Below, piece after piece: positions 2,325 through 50,038 of a stretch of 64,000 nt of DNA. Made by a program: the position numbers and the translations under genes. The stretch spans positions 1 to 64,000 of the forward strand of contig NZ_JAQZAL010000002.1 in assembly GCF_028737205.1 (NCBI RefSeq). Direction: 5' to 3'. The notes beneath the pieces are model-generated. The model was given only the letters and a program-made list of their open reading frames with translations, was not told the origin of the DNA and did not search any database. The DNA is from Actinomycetospora lutea. Its GTDB lineage: Bacteria > Actinomycetota > Actinomycetes > Mycobacteriales > Pseudonocardiaceae. Within the stretch, counting starts at the first letter, position 1. Every line of letters starts with the position of its first letter.

Positions 2325-3326
2325 ATGACGGCCACGCGACCACGTCTGACGAGCTACGCCCACGGCGGCGGCTGCGCCTGCAAGATCCCGCCCGGGGAGC
2401 TCGAGGACGTGGTGCGCGGGCTGGTGCCGTCCCCGTCGACCGCGCGGGAGGGCGAGCTGCTCGTCGGGCTGGACGACGGCGACGACGCGGCCGCGGTGCG
2501 CATCCGCGACGGGCTGGCGCTGATCGCCACCACCGACTTCTTCACGCCCGTGGTCGACGACCCCTACGACTGGGGGCGCATCGCCGCCACCAACGCGCTC
2601 TCGGACGTCTACGCCATGGGCGGGCGCCCGGTGATCGCGCTGAACCTGCTGTGCTGGCCGCGCGAGGTGCTGCCCTACGAGCTGGCCGCCGAGGTGCTGC
2701 GCGGCGGGCTCGCCGTCGCCGACGACGCCGGCTGCCACGTCGCGGGCGGGCACTCGGTCGACGACCCGGAGCCCAAGTACGGCATGGCGGTCACGGGCAC
2801 CGCCGACCCCGACGCGCTCATCCGCAACGACGCCGCGCGCCCGGGCACCCCGCTGACGCTGACCAAGCCGCTCGGGCTCGGCGTGCTCAACAACCGGCAC
2901 AAGGCCACCGGGGAGTCGTTCGACGAGGCCGTCGCGGTGATGACGACGCTGAACGCCGAGGCCTCCCGTGCGGCGGTCGCGGCCGGCGTCCGGGCGGGCA
3001 CCGACATCACCGGCTTCGGGCTGCTCGGGCACACGCACAAGATGGCCCGCGCGTCGGGGGTCACCGCGGTGATCGACAGCGCGGCGGTGCCCTTCCTCGA
3101 CGGCGCGCGCGAGGCCGCCCGCGACGGCTACGTGCCCGGCGGGTCGCGGCGCAACCTCGACTGGGTGCGCCCGCACGCCCGCCTCGACGTCGACGAGACC
3201 ATGGCCCTGCTGCTCGCCGACGCCCAGACCTCCGGCGGCCTCCTGCTCGCCGGCGAGATCCCCGGCCACCCGGTGATCGGCGAGATCGTGGCGCCCGAGG
3301 ACGGGGTCACCCTGCGGGTGCGCTGA
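2325..3326 (+). CDS. selD: Selenide, water dikinase (selenophosphate synthetase)
   Basis: A 333-residue member of the PurM/AIR-synthetase fold family. It makes selenophosphate from selenide and ATP, the selenium donor for selenocysteine (and for 2-selenouridine in tRNA). The N-terminus SYAHGGGCACKIPPGEL places the catalytic Cys17 and Lys20 exactly as in E. coli SelD; this form uses Cys where some organisms have Sec. LVGLDDGDDAAAVRI and TTDFFTPVVDDPYDWGRIAA are the nucleotide- and metal-binding segments, and DITGFGLLGH marks the C-terminal domain. No selA, selB or tRNA-Sec is visible in this window. A UGSC-family selenoprotein gene lies at 48083-48601. The 3' end overlaps the convergent glycosyltransferase gene by 20 bases. 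Confidence 0.93.
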   Translation: MTATRPRLTSYAHGGGCACKIPPGELEDVVRGLVPSPSTAREGELLVGLDDGDDAAAVRIRDGLALIATTDFFTPVVDDPYDWGRIAATNALSDVYAMGGRPVIALNLLCWPREVLPYELAAEVLRGGLAVADDAGCHVAGGHSVDDPEPKYGMAVTGTADPDALIRNDAARPGTPLTLTKPLGLGVLNNRHKATGESFDEAVAVMTTLNAEASRAAVAAGVRAGTDITGFGLLGHTHKMARASGVTAVIDSAAVPFLDGAREAARDGYVPGGSRRNLDWVRPHARLDVDETMALLLADAQTSGGLLLAGEIPGHPVIGEIVAPEDGVTLRVR

Positions 3327-48082: not shown

Positions 48083-48601
48083 TCACGTCCGGGTGACCGC
48101 CGCCAGGACCCGCGGCAACGACTCGTCGGCGAGGGCGGCCATCTCGTCGTCGGTCCGGTCCTGGATCGGGTGCGCGACGTAGACGGCGGGCACGGACGCG
48201 AAGCCCAGCGCGCGGGCCTGGACGTCGGTGGCGGTCACGAACTCCGTCGACGCGACGAAGGTGGCGGTGACGCCGTCGGCCTCGAGGGCGGCGAGGTCGT
48301 GCACACTGCACGACGTGCACGAGCCTCAATCGGCGAGTGCCTCGATCACCACGTCGCACTCGGCGGCGATCTCCGCGCGCAGGTCCGCGGGCAGCGGCTT
48401 GGTGAAGGTCGGCTTGGCGTAGCGGCGGACCGTCGCGCCGCGCTCACCGAGCAGCGACTCGAGCCGGTCGAGGAAGACGTCGCCGCGCGGCTTGGCGATG
48501 TCGAGCAGCCCCACGGTCCGGCCGGCGAGGTCGTCGGGACGCGCCCCGACGGTGCGCGACGACGGCCGGGACTCGTCGGTGGGGTCCAGCACGGTCACCA
48601 T
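48083..48601 (-). CDS. UGSC-family selenoprotein (TGA at 48326-48328 read as selenocysteine)
   Basis: Read through the in-frame TGA at 48328-48326, the gene encodes 172 residues with Sec at position 92 in ALADU-GSCTSCSVHDLAAL. Sec replaces Cys in the UGSC motif that names this family; the T-S-C that follows gives a likely redox centre (U92, C95, C98). The N-terminal region carries GLLDIAKPRGDVFLDRLESL and the C-terminal region PAVYVAHPIQDRTDDEMAAL. A hairpin begins 5 bases after the TGA, as a bacterial SECIS requires. Without readthrough there would be two fragments (91 and 73 codons). The gene starts immediately after the TGA of the upstream thioredoxin-like gene. A redox role is inferred; the substrate is unknown. 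Confidence 0.85.
48298..48328 (-). promoter_or_regulatory. Bacterial SECIS-like hairpin following the Sec TGA
   Basis: Downstream of the TGA (48328-48326) the minus strand reads gctcgtgcacgtcgtgcagt, then gtgcacgac. CGTGCAC (48321-48315) pairs with GTGCACG (48304-48298) around a 10-base loop. An alternative 8-bp stem, GTCGTGCA/TGCACGAC, covers 48314-48296. Bacterial SECIS elements are short stem-loops within about 40 bases of the UGA that bind SelB, which fits this layout. Confidence 0.65.
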
Positions 48602-50038
48602 TCAGGCCTCCTCGATGACGCGGGTGACGGGATCGCTGCCGCCGGGTCCGCCGACCCAGCCGCCGATGACGGTGGAGAACTTCCCCGCTCCCCCGCCGGC
48701 CACGGCGACCAGCAGACCGCCGGGCCGGAACTTGGGTCGCGCGCCCAGAGGTCGGCCCAGCGGCGCGGGCAGGCCCTCCTCGATGCCGTCGGCGCCCCGG
48801 GCGAGCTCCTCGGGCGGGATCAGGAGCAGCTCGTCGAGCGCCGCGGTGAAGCGCGCGCGGTCCCACCCCGCCCCGGCGAACACCGCGACGTGCTCGGGCG
48901 CCAGCACGAGCGTGGCGTCGAAGCCGCCGGCGAGCTTGGGGTGGGCGACCCCGCGCAGCGCGCCCGCCAGCGAGCGGGCCAGCGAGTCCGGGGTGCGCGA
49001 GATCTGGTCGACGACACCGCGGGCGCCCTCGGCGGCGAACACCGTGACCGCCGACGCCCCGGCCGGCACCCCGCGCGACACCGACAGCGGCTCCCACGGC
49101 GAGCCGTCCTCGTCCTCGGCGAAACAGAGCCCGACCTTGCCGGGCTGGCCGAGCGTGGCCCGGTCGACCTCGCCGGGCCGCCCGCCGCCGACGTTGCGGA
49201 TCACCAGCTGCAGCGCGCGCCCGATCGTCGAGTTCGCCCGCGTGCCCTGCCCGAGCGCGTTGCCGCCGGCGTGCACCCCGATCCGGCGGGCCACCGGGCC
49301 GTGGACGAGGACCGCCGGCGCCGCGCCCCAGGTGGTCGCGAGCAGGCCGTGGGCGTTGAACGCGTCGTCGCAGGCGGCCTCGACGGCGGCGAGCACCACC
49401 GGGAGGTATTCGGGGCGGCAGCCCGCGAGGACGGCGTTGATCGCGACCTTCTCGACGGTCGCGGGCACGAGGTTCGGCGGGACGACGGCGACGACCTCGT
49501 CGGGCGCCCGCGTGGTGCCCGCGAGCATCCGCAGCACGCGCGGCGGGGTCGGCGCGACCACGGGCAGCCCGTCGGTCCAGCCCCGGTCGTAGAGCGCCTC
49601 GGCCTCGTCCTCGAGGCCCGCGAGCTCGACGCGCCGGGCGGCGAGCTCGTGGCCCCGGGCGCGCAGGAGCATCTCGTCGGCGACCGCGGGGTCGTGGGTG
49701 CGCGACCCGCAGCCGGGCTTCCACTCCGGCAGCTCGGCGCCGAGGTCGGCGACCCCGGCGAGCTCGCGCCACCGCTCGCGGTCCCAGCCCTCGGTGCGCG
49801 CGGTCTCGCGCCCGCCCTCCCGGCGCAGCAGGGTCGGCACGACGTCGATGCCCAGCGCCACGCTGGCGTCGAGCGCGGTGTCGTCGCGGACCTCGATGCC
49901 GGGCGGGAAGGCGGGGTCGTCCTGGCTGAAGACGGTCGCGTCGAGGACGTCGAGGACCGGCGCCACCAGGCGGCACGTCGGGCAGTCCTGCTTGAGCACC
50001 ACCACGAGACCGTCTTCCGGCACGCCCACCCTCGGCAC
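48602..50038 (-). CDS. Thioredoxin-like fusion protein, partner of the UGSC selenoprotein
   Basis: A 478-residue protein. Residues 1-~100 look like a thioredoxin fold with the active-site motif DCPTCR (Cys19 and Cys22) and the cis-Pro loop DVVPTLLR near residue 67. Residues ~110-478 form a domain I do not recognise. It begins DRGWTDGLPVVAPTPPRVLR, contains FNAHGLLATTWGAAPAVLVH and HAGGNALGQGTRANSTIGRA, and ends in a Gly-rich KFSTVIGGWVGGPGGSDP. My impression is that this domain travels with UGSC proteins in several phyla. It is immediately upstream of the UGSC gene (its TGA touches the ATG), so the two are co-translated. A redox relay between CPTC and UGSC is plausible. The start is GTG. Confidence 0.65.
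   Translation of the reverse strand: MPRVGVPEDGLVVVLKQDCPTCRLVAPVLDVLDATVFSQDDPAFPPGIEVRDDTALDASVALGIDVVPTLLRREGGRETARTEGWDRERWRELAGVADLGAELPEWKPGCGSRTHDPAVADEMLLRARGHELAARRVELAGLEDEAEALYDRGWTDGLPVVAPTPPRVLRMLAGTTRAPDEVVAVVPPNLVPATVEKVAINAVLAGCRPEYLPVVLAAVEAACDDAFNAHGLLATTWGAAPAVLVHGPVARRIGVHAGGNALGQGTRANSTIGRALQLVIRNVGGGRPGEVDRATLGQPGKVGLCFAEDEDGSPWEPLSVSRGVPAGASAVTVFAAEGARGVVDQISRTPDSLARSLAGALRGVAHPKLAGGFDATLVLAPEHVAVFAGAGWDRARFTAALDELLLIPPEELARGADGIEEGLPAPLGRPLGARPKFRPGGLLVAVAGGGAGKFSTVIGGWVGGPGGSDPVTRVIEEA

Follow-up and report, generated by a model that had tools for sequence, protein, structure and literature searches.

UGSC proteins have been described as a family, together with their Sec-containing form (PMC2398784, PMC13188914, PMC9312934, PMC5029168), and the GOS study, where it treats them, ranks them among the most abundant selenoproteins of aquatic metagenomes (PMC2398784). 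The group under which a 2026 review lists UGSC is characterised there as having largely uncharacterised functions (PMC13188914), and UAG decoding in Geodermatophilaceae with UGSC-motif selenoproteins has already been published (PMC5330540, section 17, citing its reference 56). No obligate partner of UGSC and no link between UGSC and GrdB is described in the passages on UGSC consulted here from the selenium literature. The locus considered here lies within a stretch of 64,000 nucleotides from Actinomycetospora lutea, hereafter the window, and its features are collected in Table 1. The near-obligate partner of UGSC, and the partnership between the two proteins, is what the present analysis adds to the known family.

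Table 1. Features of the UGSC locus and of the window, with the basis of each assignment.
Feature	Positions	Strand	Basis or details
UGSC-family selenoprotein gene	48083..48601	-	172 codons plus stop, Sec at codon 92
UGA almost certainly read as Sec, motif UGSCTSC = UxxCxxC	48326..48328	-	TGA, TAG or Cys codons aligned in relatives; tRNA-Sec anticodon tracks codon
Partner gene, 478 aa: thioredoxin-like N-terminal domain (CPTC) and C-terminal GWTDGLP domain	48602..50038	-	Co-occurrence, profiles, model
Conserved 8-bp hairpin with GUG loop, bacterial SECIS element	48296..48314	-	Conservation and bSECIS rules
selD, selenophosphate synthetase	2343..3254	+	TIGR00476, 403.5 bits, cut-off 125

The earlier note had read this region, from the letters alone, as a continuous 172-codon frame broken only by a TGA and continuing into G-S-C-T-S-C, and had assigned it to the UGSC family with U or C at the motif. 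Both statements are borne out, as translation gives a single 172-residue frame with TGA at codon 92 and again as the end codon, and the product is matched above cut-off by NCBIfam NF041046, 'UGSC family (seleno)protein' (153.9 bits, cut-off 125, E 2.9e-45), and by Pfam PF24696 (158.9 bits, cut-off 25, E 1.7e-46). The length of the frame was dropped as evidence, the G+C-rich DNA of the window holding many longer, overlapping spurious ORFs; the frame is judged to be more than chance because the homology to NF041046 and PF24696 extends over residues both before and after the TGA. Across 32 aligned UGSC rows, U/C92, G93 and C95 were invariant. Read with translation table 11, the gene ends at 91 amino acids and loses the Sec along with the 80 residues beyond it. 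Among the differences from eight relatives in the stretch after the TGA, the third codon position leads in all eight comparisons; the excess is clear for L010 (4/3/17 at positions 1/2/3), L011 (3/3/17) and L017 (4/2/14), and likewise for L013 and L015, and the lead is slim for L018 (3/0/4), L025 (8/2/9) and L014 (16/14/19). Homologues do not end at the position of the TGA, as relatives continue through it with a TGA, TAG or Cys codon, and alignment with Cys-containing homologues places Cys at the Sec position in L052, L066, L069 and L070, to which 80 loci (80 of 194 relatives) were added by a pattern that selects Cys forms. That the frame is a true UGSC-family selenoprotein gene is regarded as practically certain.

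A search of the genome confirmed that it holds what is needed to make selenocysteine, since selA, selB, selD and a tRNA-Sec with anticodon UCA were all found. The selD gene lies within the window, as the earlier note had stated (Table 1). The tRNA-Sec (G000:C30:9413-9504, 73.3 bits; called tRNA-SeC with anticodon tca by ARAGORN) is followed on the same contig by selA (TIGR00474, 384.9 bits, cut-off 267.9) and selB (TIGR00475, 253.0 bits, cut-off 242.25). Between the tRNA-Sec and selA lies a molybdopterin oxidoreductase gene (PF00384, PF01568; L042:10237-12792 (+), G000:C30), which may encode a formate dehydrogenase and could therefore be one more selenoprotein gene.

A PF24696 search of 61 genomes, including that of the window, gave matches in 16, and every copy listed had one in-frame TGA except in G051, where both UGSC copies carry TAG and the tRNA-Sec carries CUA. 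At the loci L009-L038, translations placed a stop at the UGSC motif in 29 of 30, L024 being cut by the contig end. A tRNA-Sec above cut-off was present in 23 of 25 genomes chosen from the UGSC-positive ones (the weak matches G194, G254 and G328 were left out, as were the other congeners), comprising all 22 genomes whose UGSC match contains an in-frame stop, with G244 counted from the match table and its TGA's place in the motif unconfirmed (L071), and one of the three without a stop. Among these last three, G208 and G160 lack a tRNA-Sec and G351 has one; a second, partial UGSC match in G160 was left out of the translation. Within the genus, tRNA-Sec matches were found in 18 genomes. The anticodon is UCA in 22 of 23 aligned tRNA-Sec genes and CUA in the remaining one, from G051; the alignment held 25 sequences, with L101 and L102 being lower-scoring second matches that were not counted as tRNA-Sec. 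The Rfam library search, which took in four tRNA loci only, identified the CUA tRNA of G051 (L098) as tRNA-Sec at 64.2 bits. The same gene is labelled tRNA-Pyl, anticodon cta, by ARAGORN, a trap for annotation. The Sec codon and the tRNA-Sec anticodon thus change together, and G051 serves as a natural control for decoding of the UGSC Sec codon.

The earlier note had also proposed a stem-loop beginning five bases downstream of the TGA. A conserved hairpin is indeed present, but its stem begins 11 nt past the UGA, with the loop 19 nt past it. In its section on bSECIS elements, the 2026 review gives a loop of 3-9 nt, a stem of 4-16 bp, a G in loop positions 1-2 and a UGA-to-loop distance of 16-37 nt (PMC13188914); the window hairpin, with its 3-nt GUG loop, 8 bp and 19 nt, agrees with these rules in loop, stem and spacing. 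Among 28 distinct Sec-form sequences, all eight pairs were retained in 19 and at least seven in 21, against 0.35 sequences expected with all eight under synonymous-codon sampling at window usage, a comparison that is not to be read as a probability because related sequences are not independent. Neither eight nor at least seven pairs were found in any of the four Cys forms. The count left out the loci of the window's own genome (L016, L039, L040, L041, L051), took identical 36-base stretches once and admitted only loci matching the motif pattern. Fewer than seven of the eight pairs were found in seven of the 28 (L009, L031, L032, L062, L068, L077, L079), which confines the hairpin in its exact register to the main subfamilies. 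Of the eight pairs, one reads C-G in 23 of the Sec sequences and G-C in the other five. Where a Ser codon stands at the loop it is AGT in 24 of 24 Sec sequences, the other four having a different residue, and TCG in three of three Cys forms; in eight ORFs of the window, AGT accounts for two of 145 Ser codons. The lowest-energy fold of the window sequence alone is a longer alternative adjoining the TGA (-21.2 kcal/mol in 41 nt), the conserved hairpin on its own reaching -10.9 kcal/mol, and minimum free energy proved a weak test of the stem-loop (42/400 under the synonymous-codon null for the window) and was replaced by the count of conserved pairs. Gene, machinery and hairpin are all in place, and UGA-92 is decoded as Sec with near certainty; SelB bound to the hairpin (48314-48296) would bring Sec-tRNA-Sec (UCA) to this codon.

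The partner gene adjoins the UGSC gene directly upstream, its TGA occupying 48604-48602 and the UGSC ATG starting at 48601. A homologue of the partner was found within the 1.5-kb flanks at 30 of 30 loci in L009-L038 and 26 of 28 in L052-L079 (56 of 58 together), the two partner-free loci, L073 and L074, both being sub-cut-off UGSC matches, and a partner match was also present at 77 of the 80 Cys-form loci. At L198 no partner match was found, but the UGSC gene there lies at a contig end. Two Microbacterium loci (L151 and L167; Microbacterium lacus SDZm4 and Microbacterium sp. BR1) have a Cys-form UGSC and no partner match in 16.5 kb. Across 296 Actinomycetota genomes, UGSC was above cut-off in 22, the partner in 23 and both in 22, counts in which partners living without UGSC may be under-represented because the partner profile (A2) derives from neighbours of UGSC, including some in the 296 genomes, and may miss other partner kinds. 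One genome, G241, has four partner-domain matches on a single contig (G241:C272) and no UGSC match, perhaps because its UGSC is divergent or because it uses the partner independently. The two proteins are fused at L031, L032, L033, L036, L037 and L038, and also in the window's own genome. At L014:2007-2842 (-), in the draft genome G033, the partner homologue is matched piecewise in two frames, as if frameshifted or misassembled. UGSC and its partner co-occur, adjoin one another and are joined in fusions; they very probably form one functional unit, and physical contact between them is to be expected.

No Pfam or NCBIfam family matched the window's partner protein at E 0.001, no Pfam family matched it at E 10, and a sequence search of the PDB gave no meaningful match. 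The thioredoxin-like character of the N-terminal domain is indicated by TIGR01068 (thioredoxin), which matches 15 of 31 partner rows (best E 3.4e-4), and by a structural model (mean pLDDT 87.3) for which Foldseek returned thioredoxins (top E 2.7e-3). For the window protein itself Pfam gave no thioredoxin domain and TIGR01068 was weak (E 0.025). All 17 of the 31 rows of A2 that include the N-terminal region share a CxTC motif together with a V-P-T segment; the remaining rows cannot inform on the domain because they are cut at the match start. In the C-terminal domain, D156, G157, N269, R274 and E308 are invariant in the 31 rows, and Foldseek on the whole partner model, this domain included, gave no match at E <0.001.

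Two further UGSC genes, both with TGA, are present on contig C84 of the same genome. One is a UGSC-partner fusion, with a major facilitator superfamily transporter upstream, and two partner homologues come after the other; between the two UGSC genes lies a thioredoxin-reductase-related flavoprotein with a CATC motif, which scores 133.9 bits with TIGR01292, less than the cut-off of 343. The whole row (L051:6340-12702 (-), G000:C84) thus runs from the transporter through the fusion, the reductase-like flavoprotein and the second UGSC selenoprotein to the two partner homologues. Close to this row lie genes for a histidine kinase, a response regulator, a GntR/FCD regulator and a protein resembling acyl-CoA ligases. 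A pair of UGSC genes spaced by about 2 kb occurs in eight of 18 searched genomes of the genus, and thioredoxin-reductase-like genes also occur at L027 and at ten Cys-form loci; the 1.5-kb flanks of UGSC in the window (L016) showed none. The neighbours of the 80 Cys-form loci include SDR proteins (19), IclR regulators (24), NMT1 binding proteins (13), AMP-binding ligases (11), two clusters of Zn alcohol dehydrogenases (15 and 12 loci) and parts of ABC transporters, as clustered from ORFs filtered by codon-position G+C (867 of 2858 retained), with one representative named per cluster. Judged by these gene assignments, the neighbourhoods appear to point to catabolism, with the substrate unnamed, and they belong to subfamilies other than that of the window.

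Among the groups in which the 80 Cys-form loci occur are actinobacteria, Alcaligenaceae, Sphingomonadales and haloarchaea. On a tree built from 28 Sec and 84 Cys rows (112 in all), nine changes between Sec and Cys labels were required, which is a parsimony count only, with four forced by well-supported branches, because the tree has flagged long branches and some placements are unsure. Its rows were cut to at most 180 residues for those from the 80 Cys loci and to at most 190 for those from alignment A5. Both forms occur together in G341, where a Cys-form and a TGA-form UGSC (L066, L076) each have their own partner. Sequence search of the PDB with UGSC gave no meaningful relative, and no viral homologue was confirmed by sequence, a viral fold search giving generic alpha/beta matches only.

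The model of the UGSC protein (pLDDT 91.6) has five strands and five helices in alternation, Sec92 falling after strand 84-90 and before helix 93-108, and its best solved match by Foldseek is a flavodoxin (E 1.8e-4, TM 0.42-0.47), so that the predicted fold is alpha/beta and not thioredoxin-like. A thioredoxin fold for UGSC itself was accordingly set aside. Profile comparison of UGSC with six GrdB proteins by hhalign aligned Sec on Sec, with P 1.1e-4 and 56% probability, and a repeat run of the same program gave P 4.5e-5 and 69%, values somewhat flattered because GrdB was chosen for its motif resemblance; the score of 37 was reached by none of 60 column shuffles. Among the controls, P was 0.37 for the reversed profile and 0.26 for the alignment of the partner, and it was 7.4e-4 once the seven motif columns had been masked. 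Single-sequence Pfam scans of 32 UGSC members gave no match to the GRDB HMM (PF07355) at E up to 1, and the idea that short PF07355 proteins are UGSC relatives found no support. On the strength of the profiles, UGSC may be a distant relative of GrdB, the link being a weak one.

A possible explanation for these observations, and the one favoured here as moderately likely when taken as a whole, is that a true UGSC selenoprotein works as a unit with its partner as a thioredoxin-fed, GrdB-like reductase. Its product would be a 172-residue protein of predicted alpha/beta fold, with the selenol at a strand-to-helix turn within UxxCxxC, functioning as a single unit with its neighbouring partner. Electrons would pass from thioredoxin reductase to the thioredoxin-like domain of the partner (CPTC) and from there to the Sec/Cys pair, and the selenol, with the C-terminal domain of the partner, could then reduce or reductively cleave a small organic substrate by analogy with GrdB. 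The redox role suggested for the Sec in the earlier note is likely, and gains weight from the partner's thioredoxin-like domain and from the thioredoxin-reductase-like neighbour of the paralogues. That the unit is fed by thioredoxin is considered probable, and a thioredoxin-fed selenol reductase would be the best model; GrdB-like chemistry is a tentative proposal, held at somewhat less than an even chance. More speculative still is the view that UGSC and its partner each contribute one half of the enzyme in a so far undescribed class of Sec/Cys reductases that depend on thioredoxin; these distant kin of GrdB would reductively cleave small organic compounds in actinobacteria, proteobacteria and haloarchaea, with the window's genome also encoding a larger version with its own reductase, a transporter and two selenoproteins.

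The strongest alternative, itself unlikely, is that UGSC and the partner form a general antioxidant or repair pair that is not tied to any specific metabolic substrate, such as a thiol peroxidase or disulfide reductase. A Sec/Cys redox motif beside a thioredoxin domain would suit the reduction of peroxides or disulfides, and the review, in the part that lists UGSC, groups it with Prx/Trx/Grx-like proteins (PMC13188914); however, the UGSC model is five-stranded alpha/beta and has no thioredoxin fold, such work does not obviously call for a partner domain some 350 residues long, and the genes beside many Cys forms look catabolic, in subfamilies other than the window's. Considerably less probable is a maturation or carrier system, handling for example selenium, sulfur or metal, in place of a catabolic reductase. 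Conserved Cys/Sec motifs are known in carriers too, which counts in favour of such a system, but the diverse catabolic-looking neighbours of the Cys forms speak against it, and the lack of tRNA-Sec in two of the three genomes without a stop in UGSC makes a role tied to Sec use unlikely. That the TGA is a true stop, in a truncated gene, a pseudogene or a sequencing error that leaves a 91-aa protein, agrees with the table-11 reading and is otherwise scarcely credible, given that the TGA is kept in congeners and distant genomes, the Sec machinery is complete, third-position changes are the most frequent after the TGA in most pairs, the hairpin is conserved at the synonymous level and G051 pairs TAG with a CUA tRNA-Sec. 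The near-obligate partner, the fusion to a thioredoxin-domain protein and the row that includes a reductase make UGSC function testable with two to three co-expressed proteins.

Set against the systems already described, the window protein is a full-length match to the UGSC family (NF041046/PF24696) above curated cut-offs, with Sec at the defining motif. The UAG-decoding tRNA-Sec described for Geodermatophilaceae in the relevant section of PMC5330540 corresponds to the situation in G051, where the UGSC Sec codon is TAG and the tRNA-Sec has anticodon CUA, whereas the window organism has the standard UGA/UCA pair. The GOS study, in its account of UGSC, supposes a Trx-like fold, and the model obtained here is instead predicted to be Rossmann/flavodoxin-like; the same study records a 'UGSC/Unknown_1' fusion, in which a UGSC protein is joined to a conserved unknown domain as in the fusions found here, and Unknown_1 may be the partner (PMC2398784). 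With GrdB (PF07355), the window protein shares the alignment of Sec on Sec and the UxxCxxC motif, which is the motif given for GrdB where the review treats it (PMC13188914), and a thioredoxin-linked redox route, known for GrdB and proposed for UGSC. It differs in that the six GrdB rows read UGTGTRC, with Cys at +6 and not at +3, and the aligned stretch spans only 84 columns in a profile comparison at 56 to 69%. What was known is thus a selenoprotein family, and what is added is its pairing with a partner as a useful functional lead.
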